DNA from: a virus
Virus record (IMG/VR): IMGVR_UViG_3300048833_000706
Coordinates: 1-36,418 of that record
Reading direction: 5' to 3' (one strand)
DNA length: 36,418 nt
Shown here: piece after piece, positions 1 to 14,747 of the stretch
Layout of the letters: the number at the start of each line of letters is the position of its first letter
Position numbering within the stretch: position 1 is the stretch's first letter
Notes under the pieces: generated by a model
Database searches by the model: none
Told to the model about the DNA's origin: nothing
Seen by the model: the letters and a program-made list of their open reading frames with translations, nothing else
Program-made: the position numbers and the translations under genes

Positions 1-666
1 TCAGGCTTTCCAGCTGTGCCCGGACCAGACGACCTCGCCGATCATCTTGAGGCGGTTGAGCTCGTTCGCCTTGCGGAGCTCCCATGTGTGGTTCGGATTA
101 TCGGACCGCAGCAGGAGCGTCCTGTCGTCCAGCAGATCGAGTCGCTTGATCCTCGTCTGTCCGTCGACATCGACGAAAGCGTACATGTGGCCATTCCTGA
201 TCTTGGTTCGACCCTGATCAATCAGAGCAACGTCGCCGTCCTGAAGGTGAGGCGACATGCTGTCGCCCCTTACGCGAAGCAGACAGGCGTTGTCGGGCTT
301 CACGCTCATCTTTTGCAGCCATGTGCGCTGGAATGCGAGTTGGTCGACAACTTCAGCGTCGCCATTCTCGGCGCCAGGGCCAGCTGACGCCTGAGCTGCG
401 AAAAGCGGTACGGCGGCATAGTCGTCCTCGCCCAGGTGCACGACGGTCTCTTTCGGCTGTTCGCGTGGAGGGCCGATATAGACTTCAAGGTCGAGCACTT
501 TCGCGAGGCGCTTGAGGTTTTCGATAGGATGATCGCGCTCTTTACCTCTCCGGTTGCGAAGGTTTTTCAGCAGCGAAGGGTTGCCGACAGCCAACTTTGA
601 CGCCGCGGCGTCCGACAAGCCCTTCTCCTTCAGGGCAGCATCTATGGCTTTAAGAACGTCATCCAT
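1..666 (-). CDS. Phage repressor, LexA/CI type with S24 peptidase domain
   Basis: This is the likely lysogeny repressor (221 aa from ATG at 666; a GTG at 675 in the same frame is the alternative). The N-terminal part, about residues 8-60, looks like an XRE-type helix-turn-helix. The C-terminal part is an S24/LexA peptidase: the nucleophile is Ser136 in the RGDSMSP motif, the general base is Lys174, and Ala95-Gly96 is a plausible self-cleavage bond. Known family behaviour is RecA-stimulated autocleavage after DNA damage. It is the only leftward gene at this end, diverges from the early operon, and has one operator-like dyad 12 nt upstream of its ATG, so autoregulation is likely. Mu's own c repressor is not of the S24 type, so induction here should differ from Mu. 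Confidence 0.93.
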   Translation of the reverse strand: MDDVLKAIDAALKEKGLSDAAASKLAVGNPSLLKNLRNRRGKERDHPIENLKRLAKVLDLEVYIGPPREQPKETVVHLGEDDYAAVPLFAAQASAGPGAENGDAEVVDQLAFQRTWLQKMSVKPDNACLLRVRGDSMSPHLQDGDVALIDQGRTKIRNGHMYAFVDVDGQTRIKRLDLLDDRTLLLRSDNPNHTWELRKANELNRLKMIGEVVWSGHSWKA

Positions 667-10148: not shown

Positions 10149-10405
10149 AGAAACCCCTTTACCCGGTGAGCGACCATGCCGTGATCCGCTGGCTCGAGCG
10201 CGTCCACGGGATGGACATCGAGAGCATCCGTCGCGAGATCGGCCACAAGGCGGCGATCGCGCTGGATCACCCCGGAGCTGACGCTGTCCTCGTGGACGGT
10301 CTCAAGCTGCAGCTGCGGGAAGGGGTGGTGAGCACCGTTCTGGACCGGTCGAACGCGTGGAAGAACAAGCGCCGGTACCGGGCAGAAGTGGCGAGCGAGT
10401 CGTGA
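10145..10405 (+). CDS. Small conserved-looking phage protein
   Basis: This 86-aa protein begins YPVSDHAVIRWLERVHGMD after a short basic start and ends in a strand-rich part. Proteins with this opening are common in alphaproteobacterial phages, but I know of no assigned function. It overlaps GemA and the methyltransferase by 4 nt each. Confidence 0.6.
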   Translation: MKKPLYPVSDHAVIRWLERVHGMDIESIRREIGHKAAIALDHPGADAVLVDGLKLQLREGVVSTVLDRSNAWKNKRRYRAEVASES

Positions 10406-10965
10406 TCGCCTCTTGGCCCTTCGAGGGGCTGACCCCCTTCAAGTATGGCGCGATCCTTGCCGATCCGCCGTGGGCCTACGACATGCGCTCTGAGAAGGGA
10501 CACGCGAAGTCGCCCGAGGCCCACTATGCCACGATGACGCCGGAGGCGATCAAGGCGCTGCCGGTCGGCCAGCTGGCGGGGCCGGACTGCCTTCTGTTCC
10601 TGTGGAGCACGTGGCCGCACCTGCCGCTCGCGATGGAGGTCATGGAGAGCTGGGGCTTCGCCTACAAGACGGGCGGGGCCTGGGTGAAGCGGACGCCAAC
10701 GGGCAAGCCGGTGTTCGGTACGGGTTACCTTTTGCGGTCAGCGACCGAGCCGTTCCTGATCGGGACGATCGGGTCGCCCGCCATCAGGTCGAAGAGCGTC
10801 CGCAACCTGATCGACGCTGAGCGGCGCGAGCATTCCCGCAAGCCGCCCGAGGCGCGGGCGATGCTTGAGAAGCTGCTGCCCGATGTGTGGGGCTGCGAGC
10901 TGTTCGCGCGGGAAGGCTGGTCGGGGCGAGACGTCTGGGGCAACCAGGTGGGGAGGTTCGTGTGA
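10402..10965 (+). CDS. MT-A70 family DNA N6-adenine methyltransferase
   Basis: This 187-aa protein starts with GTG 10402, overlapping the upstream stop. The catalytic DPPW is at residues 21-24, followed by FLWSTWPHLPLAME and a C-terminal HSRKPPEARAMLEKL segment, as in MT-A70 enzymes. It probably methylates adenine in phage DNA to evade host restriction, or alters host promoters. It is the last gene of the early operon and ends 8 nt before the convergent exported-protein gene. Mu protects its DNA differently, through Mom. Confidence 0.9.
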   Translation: MIASWPFEGLTPFKYGAILADPPWAYDMRSEKGHAKSPEAHYATMTPEAIKALPVGQLAGPDCLLFLWSTWPHLPLAMEVMESWGFAYKTGGAWVKRTPTGKPVFGTGYLLRSATEPFLIGTIGSPAIRSKSVRNLIDAERREHSRKPPEARAMLEKLLPDVWGCELFAREGWSGRDVWGNQVGRFV

Positions 10966-11421: not shown

Positions 11422-11808
11422 GTGTCGGCTGAACCGCGCGCCCTTTCTCCCCGCCCTCCCGCCCAGGTGCAGGCGTATGTCGATGTCCTTGGGGTCGACG
11501 GCGCGGTCGAGTTCCTGCTGACCTTCGGCGGGGCAGAGCTCTATGTCGCGGCTAATCCGAAAGGACGGGGCAAGGTCGAGCGGCAGTTCGGCGCGGAGAA
11601 GGCGGCGGCGCTGGCAGCGATCGTCGACCGGTTGCCGCGGCGGGTTCCGACCGCGAAGCCATGGATCGCGCAGGTCCTTCGCACGCAGGGCTTGTCCGTT
11701 GCGGAAATTGCCCGCAGACTGCACGCAACCGACGTCTCGGTGCGTGGCTGGCTACGCAAGGCGGAATTGGGCGAGGCCCCTGACAGTCGGCAGCTCCGGC
11801 TCTTCTGA
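11422..11808 (+). CDS. Mor-like transcriptional activator
   Basis: This 128-aa protein starts with GTG 11422, 7 nt after AAGGAG. The middle part has a strand with FGGAELYVA, as in Mor/C-family activators. The C-terminal half has an HTH at about 91-115 (LSVAEIARRLHATDVSVRGW). In Mu, Mor and C turn on middle and late genes and lie just upstream of the lysis gene, as here. Only one such gene is present, so it may act as both. Assignment is by fold pattern and position. Confidence 0.75.
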   Translation: MSAEPRALSPRPPAQVQAYVDVLGVDGAVEFLLTFGGAELYVAANPKGRGKVERQFGAEKAAALAAIVDRLPRRVPTAKPWIAQVLRTQGLSVAEIARRLHATDVSVRGWLRKAELGEAPDSRQLRLF

Positions 11809-11847: not shown

Positions 11848-11919
11848 ATCGGGATTTTCGGGAATGGCATGGTCACCCCAACGGAGCCGCGATGTGCGGC
11901 GGATCGCACGGGGAACGCC

Positions 11920-12543
11920 ATGAGCCTGAAACTGATCCAGCAGGGCCTCTCCGGCCTGCGCTATGACGTTGGCCCCGCCGATGACGATTGGGGGCCGCGC
12001 ACCGAGCGGGCAATGCAGGCCTGCATCGCCGGACGTGGCCAGCCGGTGACCTTCCGACCCGAGCCCGCGACCATCACCCCCGGCGCGCCGCGGATCTATC
12101 AGGGGTCGGCTCGATACCTCGTGGATGAAATCGTGGTCCACTGCGCGGCGACCCTTCCGGCCTGGATGCAGGGCCAGTCGATTGCTGCCAAGGTGGCCGA
12201 GATCACGGCCTGGCACCGCGCCCGCGGGTGGCGGACAATCGGGTACCAGCATGTCATCGACCGTGACGGGGCCCATGCCACCGGCCGAGCGGAGACCGAG
12301 ATCGGTGCCGGTGTCGAAGGTCACAATCGCGGTGTGATCCACATTTGCCTGATCGGCGGTCATGGCTCGGCCTCGACCGATGCGTTCACCCGCCATTTCA
12401 CCACTGCCCAGGACCTCAGGCTCCGCCGCCTCATCGCGGAAATCAGCGCCCGCACGACGATCCGCCGGGTCTCCGGCCACAACGAATGGGCCGCCAAGGC
12501 CTGCCCCGGCTTCAACGTTCCCGCCTGGCTGAACGCCGCCTGA
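11920..12543 (+). CDS. Endolysin, N-acetylmuramoyl-L-alanine amidase
   Basis: This 207-aa protein cuts the amide bond between muramic acid and the stem peptide. Residues about 4-40 resemble a short peptidoglycan-binding repeat (DDDWGPRTERAM). The amidase_2 domain covers about 65-200, with H74, H187 and C195 as zinc ligands and Y109 and K193 as catalytic residues, matching H17, H122, C130, Y46 and K128 of T7 lysozyme. No signal peptide is seen, so release needs a holin. ATG 11920 follows GGGGA; ATG 11869 would add 17 residues. Confidence 0.92.
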   Translation: MSLKLIQQGLSGLRYDVGPADDDWGPRTERAMQACIAGRGQPVTFRPEPATITPGAPRIYQGSARYLVDEIVVHCAATLPAWMQGQSIAAKVAEITAWHRARGWRTIGYQHVIDRDGAHATGRAETEIGAGVEGHNRGVIHICLIGGHGSASTDAFTRHFTTAQDLRLRRLIAEISARTTIRRVSGHNEWAAKACPGFNVPAWLNAA

Positions 12544-12554
12544 GAGGATCGCAC

Positions 12555-12782
12555 ATGCCATACGTTTCCAGCAGCTCTGACGAGCGCGTGGTCAACAACA
12601 CGATAAGACACGCCTACCGCGTCTTGAGCGACGAGGAGGAGGCCCAGATGGCAGCCGTGAAAGATGCTGGTCAGGCGTTTCACGACCTGATCGCGGGGCT
12701 GGGTGCCAGCCGTGAGACCAGCATCGCCAAGACCAAGATCGAGGAGGCGGTCATGTGGGCCGTCAAGCACATCACCACCTGA
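12555..12782 (+). CDS. Acb2/Tad1-like cyclic-nucleotide sponge (probable anti-defence protein)
   Basis: This 75-aa protein has the signature of the Acb2/Tad1 hairpin family (formerly DUF7681): HAYRVLSDEEEAQMAAVKDA, a helix with FHDLIAGLG, SRETSIAKTKIEEA and a final VMWAVKHIT. Family members form oligomers that bind cyclic di- or trinucleotides (Acb2) or ADP-ribose-type signals (Tad1) and so block CBASS or Thoeris abortive defence. GAGAGGA lies 5 nt upstream of the ATG. It sits between endolysin and holin-like genes. Which ligand it binds cannot be told from sequence. Confidence 0.77.
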   Translation: MPYVSSSSDERVVNNTIRHAYRVLSDEEEAQMAAVKDAGQAFHDLIAGLGASRETSIAKTKIEEAVMWAVKHITT

Positions 12783-12811: not shown

Positions 12812-13204
12812 ATGCTTGATCAACTCCTGACGGCCATCGAGCCGCACCTCACTGAAATCCTGACCGGCATCATGGTCTGGCTCCTGAGCCTGTTCGTGCT
12901 GGCGGTCCGCCGCGTCGGTCGCGCGCTCACCGAGGCGATCGGTGAGCATTTCGGGCTGCAGGCGCAGCGCATCTGGCAGGACACACTGCACCGGGCGTTG
13001 CGGTCGGGGGTGCTGGCCACCGACGGCAACGTGGCTGACGAAGAGGAGCGGATCGACGAGATCATCGACTACGCCTGGCGGAGTTCCCCTGAGCATATCA
13101 GCGCGCTGGGGCCGACAGAGGATGTCCTGCGGGCCCTTGCCAAGGCGAAGATCAGAGAGGTGGGTGCCGAGCTTGCCCGCGCTGGCGCCGGTGCTGCACG
13201 ATGA
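12812..13204 (+). CDS. Holin-like membrane protein
   Basis: This 130-aa protein has one clear membrane helix at about residues 16-33 (ILTGIMVWLLSLFVLAV), followed by a long cytoplasmic helical region rich in Arg and Ala. This layout and its place two genes after the endolysin fit an LLH-type holin. It overlaps the DUF2730 gene by 4 nt. It may instead be a structural or regulatory membrane protein. Confidence 0.6.
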   Translation: MLDQLLTAIEPHLTEILTGIMVWLLSLFVLAVRRVGRALTEAIGEHFGLQAQRIWQDTLHRALRSGVLATDGNVADEEERIDEIIDYAWRSSPEHISALGPTEDVLRALAKAKIREVGAELARAGAGAAR

Positions 13205-13542
13205 CGCCGGATCAGGTCGATGTCGGTACGCTCGTCCTCTGGGCTGCGGCCTGTTCAACGCTGATCACCTTGGGCATTGCCGTGTGGAACATCTTTTCCT
13301 CGCCTGCCCGCAAGCAGGCTGACCGTCTCGACGCGCAAGGCAAGCGGATTGAGGACCTCGACCGCGCGATTCAGCGCATTGAGTCCCAGATCACGGCGAT
13401 GCCGAACACGGCCACCATGCATGAGCTGGAGGTGATGTTGGTGCGGGTGGAGGGGCGGCTCGACACGCTGAATGAACGCCTGGCGCCGGTCGCGGCTATC
13501 GCCGACCGGATGCAGGAATGGATGCTGGAGAACGGCAAGTGA
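13201..13542 (+). CDS. DUF2730 family protein
   Basis: This 113-aa protein has an N-terminal membrane helix (about residues 9-30) and a coiled coil from about 40 to 110 with KRIEDLDRAIQRIESQI. That is the architecture of DUF2730 proteins, found at this position in Mu-like phages (Mu gp25 region). The function is unknown. A spanin- or holin-related role has been considered for such proteins but is unproven. Confidence 0.8.
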   Translation: MTPDQVDVGTLVLWAAACSTLITLGIAVWNIFSSPARKQADRLDAQGKRIEDLDRAIQRIESQITAMPNTATMHELEVMLVRVEGRLDTLNERLAPVAAIADRMQEWMLENGK

Positions 13543-13841
13543 CCAACCTCGACACAGTCATGCGGGAGCAGGCCCGCCTCGTCATCCTGAAGGCGCTGCG
13601 TGCGGAAGTGGGCGAGAGCCTGAACTCCGACCTGCTCGTTCACGAGCTGGCGCGCTTCGCCATCCGCAAGGATCGCGGCTGGGTGCATGATGAACTCGCC
13701 TGGCTGCGCGAGCGGGGGGCCGTGTCGTTGATCGATGCGGGCACCATCAAGATCGCAACCTTGACCGAAAAGGGCGCCCGGCACCTTGACCGGGAGATCG
13801 CGATCGAGGGCGTCCAGCGGCCCAGCCGGCCGGAGGTCTGA
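13539..13841 (+). CDS. Winged-helix phage protein (Mu gp26-like)
   Basis: This 100-aa protein starts with GTG 13539 overlapping the DUF2730 stop; ATG 13560 is possible. Its pattern matches the VpaChn25_0724/Mu gp26 family: ARLVILKALRAE, SLNSDLLVHELARFAIRKDR, GWVHDELAWLRERGAVS and an IATLTEKG wing. It ends with IEGVQRPSRP. It probably binds DNA and works with the next gene in packaging. Confidence 0.82.
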   Translation: MTNLDTVMREQARLVILKALRAEVGESLNSDLLVHELARFAIRKDRGWVHDELAWLRERGAVSLIDAGTIKIATLTEKGARHLDREIAIEGVQRPSRPEV

Positions 13842-13842
13842 G

Positions 13843-14451
13843 ATGGGCGCAGCGTCCAGCGACAAGTCCCCGCGCGGTCGGGGGCGGCTGTCGGCCTTCG
13901 ACCTGCTGCCGCCGGAGTGCGAGCCGCTGCTGACGGCAGCCGCGCATGAGCTCGGGGACAGGAACCGGACGCAGCTCGACATCTATGCCGACTTCATCCG
14001 AGGCTGCGAGGAGATCATGGCGGCCAGCCGGGGCGAGCTCGAGTTCGCGATCCCGAGCTTCTCGTCCTTCAACCGGCTGTCGATCCGCCTGGCCCGCCTG
14101 ACGAGACGGCTTGACCAGACCCGGCAGATCGTCGCGGCGATCGCGGATAAGTTCGACGCCAAGGAGAGCGACGACCTGACCGTCATGCTGGGCGAGACGA
14201 TCAAGTCGCTCATCCTGCACATGCTGGCCGAGGGCGACGATGTCCTCGGGTCGAAGGAGGTCATGCAGCTCGCCAATGCCTTCAAGTCGGCGCTGCAGGC
14301 GCAGTCGATCAGCTCTGACCGGCGGCGGAAGGTTGAGGCCGAGTTCGAGGGCAAGGTCACCGAAGCGGTCGAACGTGCGGCGCGGGCAACCGGCATGTCG
14401 GCCGAGACGGCCGAGGCGGTGAAGGCGCAGATCCTCGGGGTGACGGCGTGA
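13843..14451 (+). CDS. DUF3486 protein, small-terminase-like (Mu gp27)
   Basis: This 202-aa protein matches DUF3486: a basic start with KSPRGRGRLSAFDLLPPE, then IPSFSSFNRLSIRLAR, then a helical body. In Mu the equivalent gp27 lies just upstream of the large terminase and is thought to be its DNA-recognition partner. Here two small genes intervene. It overlaps the next start by 4 nt. Confidence 0.87.
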   Translation: MGAASSDKSPRGRGRLSAFDLLPPECEPLLTAAAHELGDRNRTQLDIYADFIRGCEEIMAASRGELEFAIPSFSSFNRLSIRLARLTRRLDQTRQIVAAIADKFDAKESDDLTVMLGETIKSLILHMLAEGDDVLGSKEVMQLANAFKSALQAQSISSDRRRKVEAEFEGKVTEAVERAARATGMSAETAEAVKAQILGVTA

Positions 14452-14747
14452 CGATGATCCGCGCGATCTTCAACCCCGACGCAGAGCGATGGAGGCACTT
14501 CGGTTCGCCGGGGAGCTTTATCCTCATCCCGCGGGAGACTCCGGGCCTGCTCGAATTCCGGTACTTCTGCCCCTGCGGATGCGGTGCCGAGAACGGGCTC
14601 CTGATCGGCGACGGCTTCAAGCCCGGCGGAGACCGACCCTCCTGGCGGTGGAACGGATCGAAGACCGAGCCGACTCTCGACCCTTCGGTCAACATGGAAG
14701 GGCATTGGCACGGCTGGCTCAACAGCGGGTACTGGAGGGCGGCGTGA
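14448..14747 (+). CDS. DUF6527-like zinc-binding protein
   Basis: This 99-aa protein has CPCGCG at about residues 41-46, PSWRWNGSKTEPTLDPSV and a terminal HWHGWL-x-SGYW, the pattern of DUF6527 proteins. The cysteines and histidines suggest one metal site. It starts with GTG 14448 (ATG 14454 also possible). It is inserted between terminase subunit genes. Function is unknown. Confidence 0.78.
   Translation: MTMIRAIFNPDAERWRHFGSPGSFILIPRETPGLLEFRYFCPCGCGAENGLLIGDGFKPGGDRPSWRWNGSKTEPTLDPSVNMEGHWHGWLNSGYWRAA

Follow-up and report, generated by a model that had tools for sequence, protein, structure and literature searches.

The closest described relatives of the gene considered here are small phage proteins of the Acb2 family. 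They include Acb2 of PaMx33 (ORF24; family of PaP2 p26, PDB codes 8h2x and 8h2j), Vs.4/Acb2 of T4-type phages (PDB code 7uq2), and Acb2 homolog 43 (PDB code 9ptq). In the T4 protein, the mutation Y8A disrupts cyclic dinucleotide binding, and F82, which stacks on a base, is the site of the escape mutation F82C (PMC12657218), while T68M reduces the affinity (PMC12657230). The Tad1 proteins (PDB codes 7uav, 8kbf, and 8smd) contain a comparable hairpin at the C terminus together with an N-terminal β domain. We analyzed a gene for a 75-residue protein in a viral DNA stretch of 36,418 nucleotides (IMG/VR record IMGVR_UViG_3300048833_000706, positions 1–36,418), referred to below as the window. An initial annotation had described the product as an Acb2/Tad1-like anti-defense sponge encoded inside the lysis cassette.

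Assignment to the Acb2 Family

The open reading frame (ORF) starts with an ATG at position 12555, its stop codon ends at 12782, and the product is MPYVSSSSDERVVNNTIRHAYRVLSDEEEAQMAAVKDAGQAFHDLIAGLGASRETSIAKTKIEEAVMWAVKHITT. The three motifs that had been put forward as a signature, YRVLSDEE, SRETSIAKTKIEEA, and VMWAVKHIT, are all present. When compared with the Pfam profile PF24729 (Acb2/Tad1 hairpin), the protein scores 69.9 bits (E-value of 2.1e-19, cut-off of 27 bits), with a match that begins at residue 20. As a yardstick, PaMx33 Acb2 scores 66.1 bits and Vs.4 from the T4-type phage RB32 scores 70.5 bits, so that the proposed family match is found at a bit score on par with the founding proteins. 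A profile built from 54 relatives was run against all PDB sequences and ranked Acb2 homolog 43 first, followed by Vs.4, Pseudomonas Acb2, and Tad1, at modest E-values of 0.0013 to 0.09. The matches in PHROGs were phrog_1454 and phrog_717, neither of which has an assigned function, and a search of NCBIfam returned no family. Judged by its profile match, the 75-residue product clearly belongs to the known Acb2 family, in which it is unexceptional.

A monomer was modeled with AlphaFold2 from a 54-row alignment. The two helices (Table 1) have a predicted local distance difference test (pLDDT) score of about 98, and the first 20 residues have a score of about 51. The helical hairpin anticipated in the initial annotation is thus obtained, and AlphaFold2, Foldseek, and VIA-align agree on a core of two antiparallel helices that resembles 8h2x and 7uq2. 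The best eight Foldseek matches, with 8h2x, 8h2j, and 7uq2 among them, are all solved Acb2/Vs.4 chains with a probability of 0.99–1.00, although the E-values are only 0.06–0.2, the query being very small. Superposition with VIA-align on 8h2x, 8h2j, and 7uq2 gives 1.8–2.4 Å over 58–60 residues at 30–34% identity.

PaMx33 Acb2 and Vs.4 both contain the same Pfam domain as the window protein, and each is 33% identical to it. The AKTK...MWA motif is common to Vs.4 and the window protein. Both known proteins have a longer region between the helices, much longer in PaMx33 Acb2, and both lack an N-terminal arm that is present in the window protein. The PaMx33 gene follows replication genes, whereas the window gene is situated in the lysis segment. 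Acb2 homolog 43 is likewise a short hairpin. Direct siblings, 59–61% identical, are found in phages of alphaproteobacteria and in environmental phages, for example AUSSIE_37 of Sinorhizobium phage Aussie and DVVG_00015 of Dunaliella viridis virus SI2, and phrog_1454 belongs with them. These siblings have the same arm and near-equal length, but they occupy other genomic positions and are annotated only as hypothetical.

One scan of IMG/VR yielded 211 related stretches, and another 27 were found in genome contigs. The median ratio of nonsynonymous to synonymous substitution rates (dN/dS) in the family is 0.24 for the 564 pairs with measurable dS, which indicates purifying selection on the encoded protein. 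The ORF is thus a real gene and not a chance one.

Ligand Pocket and Proposed Function

Alignment shows that Y21 of the window protein corresponds to T4 Y8 and PaMx33 Y11, and T60 to T4 T68 and PaMx33 T74. Both positions are conserved. K36, which corresponds to PaMx33 K26, is shared by all nine proteins of the alignment, and R53 aligns with PaMx33 R67, so that the PaMx33 residues Y11, K26, R67, and T74 all have identical equivalents. We take Y11, K26, and R67 of PaMx33 Acb2 to be ligand-contact residues.

Homology and this conservation of the pocket suggest a sponge mechanism, and the gene product is probably a sponge of the Acb2 family, carried by a temperate phage of the Mu-like type. The protein would be produced alongside the late gene products, following induction or infection, and would assemble as a hexamer, as its solved relatives do. 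Its pockets would hold cyclic di- and/or trinucleotides without cutting them, and the effectors of the cyclic oligonucleotide-based anti-phage signaling system (CBASS), or of other systems with such signals, would be kept off until the phage has finished. The site beside the amidase gene would be an insertion slot that grants late expression, with no role in lysis.

Several observations weigh against this assignment. The base-stacking F82 of T4 is replaced by a threonine (T74) in the window protein, so the pocket is not identical; PaMx33 Acb2 has an alanine in that column and is therefore non-aromatic there too. The VIA-align Z scores of 6–7 are no higher than those for unrelated helical hairpins, which means that the fold alone proves little and that the weight is on the sequence profile. 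We found neither a binding assay nor a phage assay of the alphaproteobacterial subfamily. Finally, the family of Roseovarius mucosus was surveyed (296 genomes, 11 with a PF24729 member and 30 with a cGAS/DncV-like nucleotidyltransferase (CD-NTase) of the SMODS type). The CD-NTase occurs in 3 of the 11 carriers versus 27 of the 285 non-carriers, which is not a significant association (p = 0.09); with the seed genome removed, it is present in 2 of 10 carriers (p = 0.26). Host co-occurrence with CD-NTases provides no evidence either way.

An N-terminal Arm in the Alphaproteobacterial Subfamily

Ahead of the first helix, the relatives contain the sequence SDxRxxNNxxRH, where R11, N14, N15, R18, and H19 do not vary among the 54 relatives aligned. 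This arm lies outside the PF24729 match and is missing from PaMx33 Acb2 and Vs.4 in the alignment. Many alphaproteobacterial members carry it, and Gram-positive members, for example L105 and L108, lack it. Relatives from Pullulanibacillus (L105), a deltaproteobacterial bin (L107), and a clostridial bin (L108) have SRE(K/R)SLAxTKIEEAVMWANAS in common, and the arm is absent from all three.

The arm is possibly a lid that contacts the ligand, or a clamp between subunits, and it may change the ligand choice of the alphaproteobacterial subfamily. If it reached into or over the pocket, the signal held could differ from that of Pseudomonas or T4 Acb2. The invariance of the five arm residues, their absence from PaMx33 Acb2 and Vs.4, the register of the 9ptq match, which leaves no room for an arm, and the exchange of the stacking phenylalanine for threonine are all consistent with such a shift. 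However, the tyrosine, lysine, and threonine positions of the pocket are retained, the placement of the arm is uncertain because it is poorly modeled in the monomer, and the arm perhaps merely stabilizes the oligomer. We consider a shifted ligand unlikely. The same doubt attaches to a broader proposal, by which the arm-bearing subfamily would be a distinct class of sponge. The R/N/N/R/H arm would then close the pocket and select a nucleotide signal outside the range of the known Acb2 proteins, which might come from an alphaproteobacterial defense not yet linked to a signal.

Exchange of the Hairpin Gene as a Unit

The sister phage L112 is 79–88% identical to the window at the nucleotide level on both flanks of the hairpin gene, and the homology is interrupted between them (Table 1). 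The hairpin gene has been swapped as a unit, almost exactly from start to stop. The slot between the amidase and holin-like genes in L112 is filled by an unrelated gene (L112:3765-4073), the 102-residue product of which has an N-terminal hydrophobic segment and no Pfam match. This may be another cargo gene. In Rhodovulum phage RS1, the endolysin gene is followed by one for a protein with a weak match to holins of the gene transfer agent (GTA) type (PF11351, just under the cut-off), and there is no hairpin gene between the two.

The 122 proteins adjoining the relatives match 113 PHROG families, none of which is present in more than three proteins; portal, terminase, endolysin, and DNA polymerase families are all represented. 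The neighboring genes were called by a simple script, so individual neighbors could be misassigned, but their diversity is evident. In Sinorhizobium phage Aussie, the hairpin gene is situated between the genes for the head-tail adaptor and the stopper, in Dunaliella viridis virus SI2 it is two genes upstream of the holin gene, and in MW202738 it is near recombination genes. Among Mu-like relatives, it lies between gp27 and gp28 (L078), between gp28 and gp29 (L134), or several kilobases past gp29 (L096 and L102). The hairpin gene behaves as exchangeable cargo that has been recruited repeatedly, and this behavior, evident from the varied positions, fits anti-defense better than lysis.

The meaning that the initial annotation had given to the lysis-cassette position is not borne out, as an unrelated gene occupies the slot in L112 and relatives are spread over regions for head-tail, terminase, early, and lysis functions. 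A general link to lysis was rejected on the basis of the neighbor survey and of L112. For the window protein itself, one could still argue that the hairpin, instead of quenching a signal, controls the holin-like protein or the timing of lysis, given its place between the amidase and holin-like genes. In two viral contigs (L020 and L027), moreover, the hairpin forms an in-frame fusion with a protein that has a hydrophobic segment, beside lysis-type genes. Against this, the lysis segment of L112 is otherwise intact without a hairpin gene, relatives occur elsewhere, and only six endolysin matches are present among the neighbor families shown. A constant position beside lysis genes was not found among the relatives. 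The 75-residue protein has no transmembrane segment or export signal, its highest 19-residue hydropathy mean being 0.59 compared with 2.1 in the holin-like ORF. A role in lysis is very improbable. In the fusions (L027:5001-5729 and L020:5001-5693), the membrane part is C-terminal, and M67 of MWAVK/MWGVK is a plausible internal start for the membrane part alone.

That the protein sequesters the Thoeris signal glyco-cyclic ADP-ribose (gcADPR) in the manner of Tad1 is scarcely credible: it has the SRE...MW motif in common with the Tad1 hairpin, and Tad1 is among the weaker structure matches, but 75 residues are too short for the N-terminal antiparallel β domain, and the AlphaFold2 model, with just 25 residues ahead of the first helix, contains no strand. 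Of the Acb2/Tad1-like sponge first proposed, the Acb2-like family and fold are retained, whereas the Tad1 side and a role against Thoeris are not indicated since the β domain is absent.

The Lysis Segment and the Phage

The window represents a Mu-like phage, with a MuA-type transposase, a MuB-like transposition protein, GemA, gp27, and a CI-type repressor. Its nearest named relatives are RS1 and Rhodobacter phage RC1, and its host is probably among the Rhodobacteraceae. The features around the hairpin gene are listed in Table 1.

Table 1. Features of the hairpin gene, its product, and the surrounding segment of the window
Feature	Position	Strand	Evidence or remarks
Late transcriptional activator	11422..11808	+	phrog_836, E-value 2.8e-23; 56% identical to RS1 gene so annotated
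N-acetylmuramoyl-L-alanine amidase, opens lysis segment	11920..12543	+	PF01510 Amidase_2, E-value 2.1e-10; phrog_822, E-value 4.3e-47
Shine-Dalgarno-like GAGAGGA	12542..12548	+	6 nucleotides before hairpin-gene ATG; overlaps amidase stop codon
Acb2-type hairpin gene, 75 residues	12555..12782	+	PF24729, AlphaFold2 hairpin, Foldseek
Block exchanged relative to L112	12561..12774	+	blastn homology ends at 12560 (79% identity), restarts at 12775 (85%)
Hairpin protein, conserved N-terminal arm	residues 6–19		
Hairpin protein, helices	residues 26–47 and 53–74		
Holin-like small protein, one hydrophobic segment	12812..13204	+	phrog_17576, of unknown function; hydropathy peak at residues 14–32
DUF2730 protein of Mu-like phages	13201..13542	+	PF10805, E-value 1.9e-8
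Mu gp27-like protein, first of packaging/head genes	13786..14451	+	PF11985, E-value 4e-33

For the amidase, the start may be at 11869 or 11920, and from the latter the sequence MSLKLIQQGL is conserved in L112. Of the two flanking genes named in the initial annotation, the amidase is confirmed, but the holin label is a guess from the hydrophobic segment and the position, as the product of 12812–13204 has no Pfam match and matches no named holin family. In L112, AAAGGA is found in the position of the Shine-Dalgarno-like sequence. The activator gene lies directly upstream of the amidase gene, which makes late expression probable for the amidase, hairpin, and holin-like genes. The earlier suggestion of late expression is backed by this activator, and the hairpin gene is likely expressed late. 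A scan for σ70-type promoters found none on the plus strand.

A DUF6527 gene (14448–14747) lies between gp27 and gp28, where RS1 has a minus-strand ORF, and could mark another slot of exchange. An MT-A70 family methyltransferase is encoded upstream of the late region (10357–10965) and possibly shields the phage DNA from restriction.

Family Breadth and Implications

The initial annotation ascribed the known family members mainly to phages of gammaproteobacteria and of Gram-positive bacteria. This agrees with the emphasis of published work, yet close relatives of the window protein are common in alphaproteobacterial genomes and viral contigs. The finding leaves existing concepts unchanged. It adds a large and highly conserved alphaproteobacterial branch to a sponge family characterized mainly from gammaproteobacterial phages, and swapping of the hairpin gene as a whole cassette is seen between sister phages. 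The arm of this branch offers a concrete and testable prediction on ligand choice.
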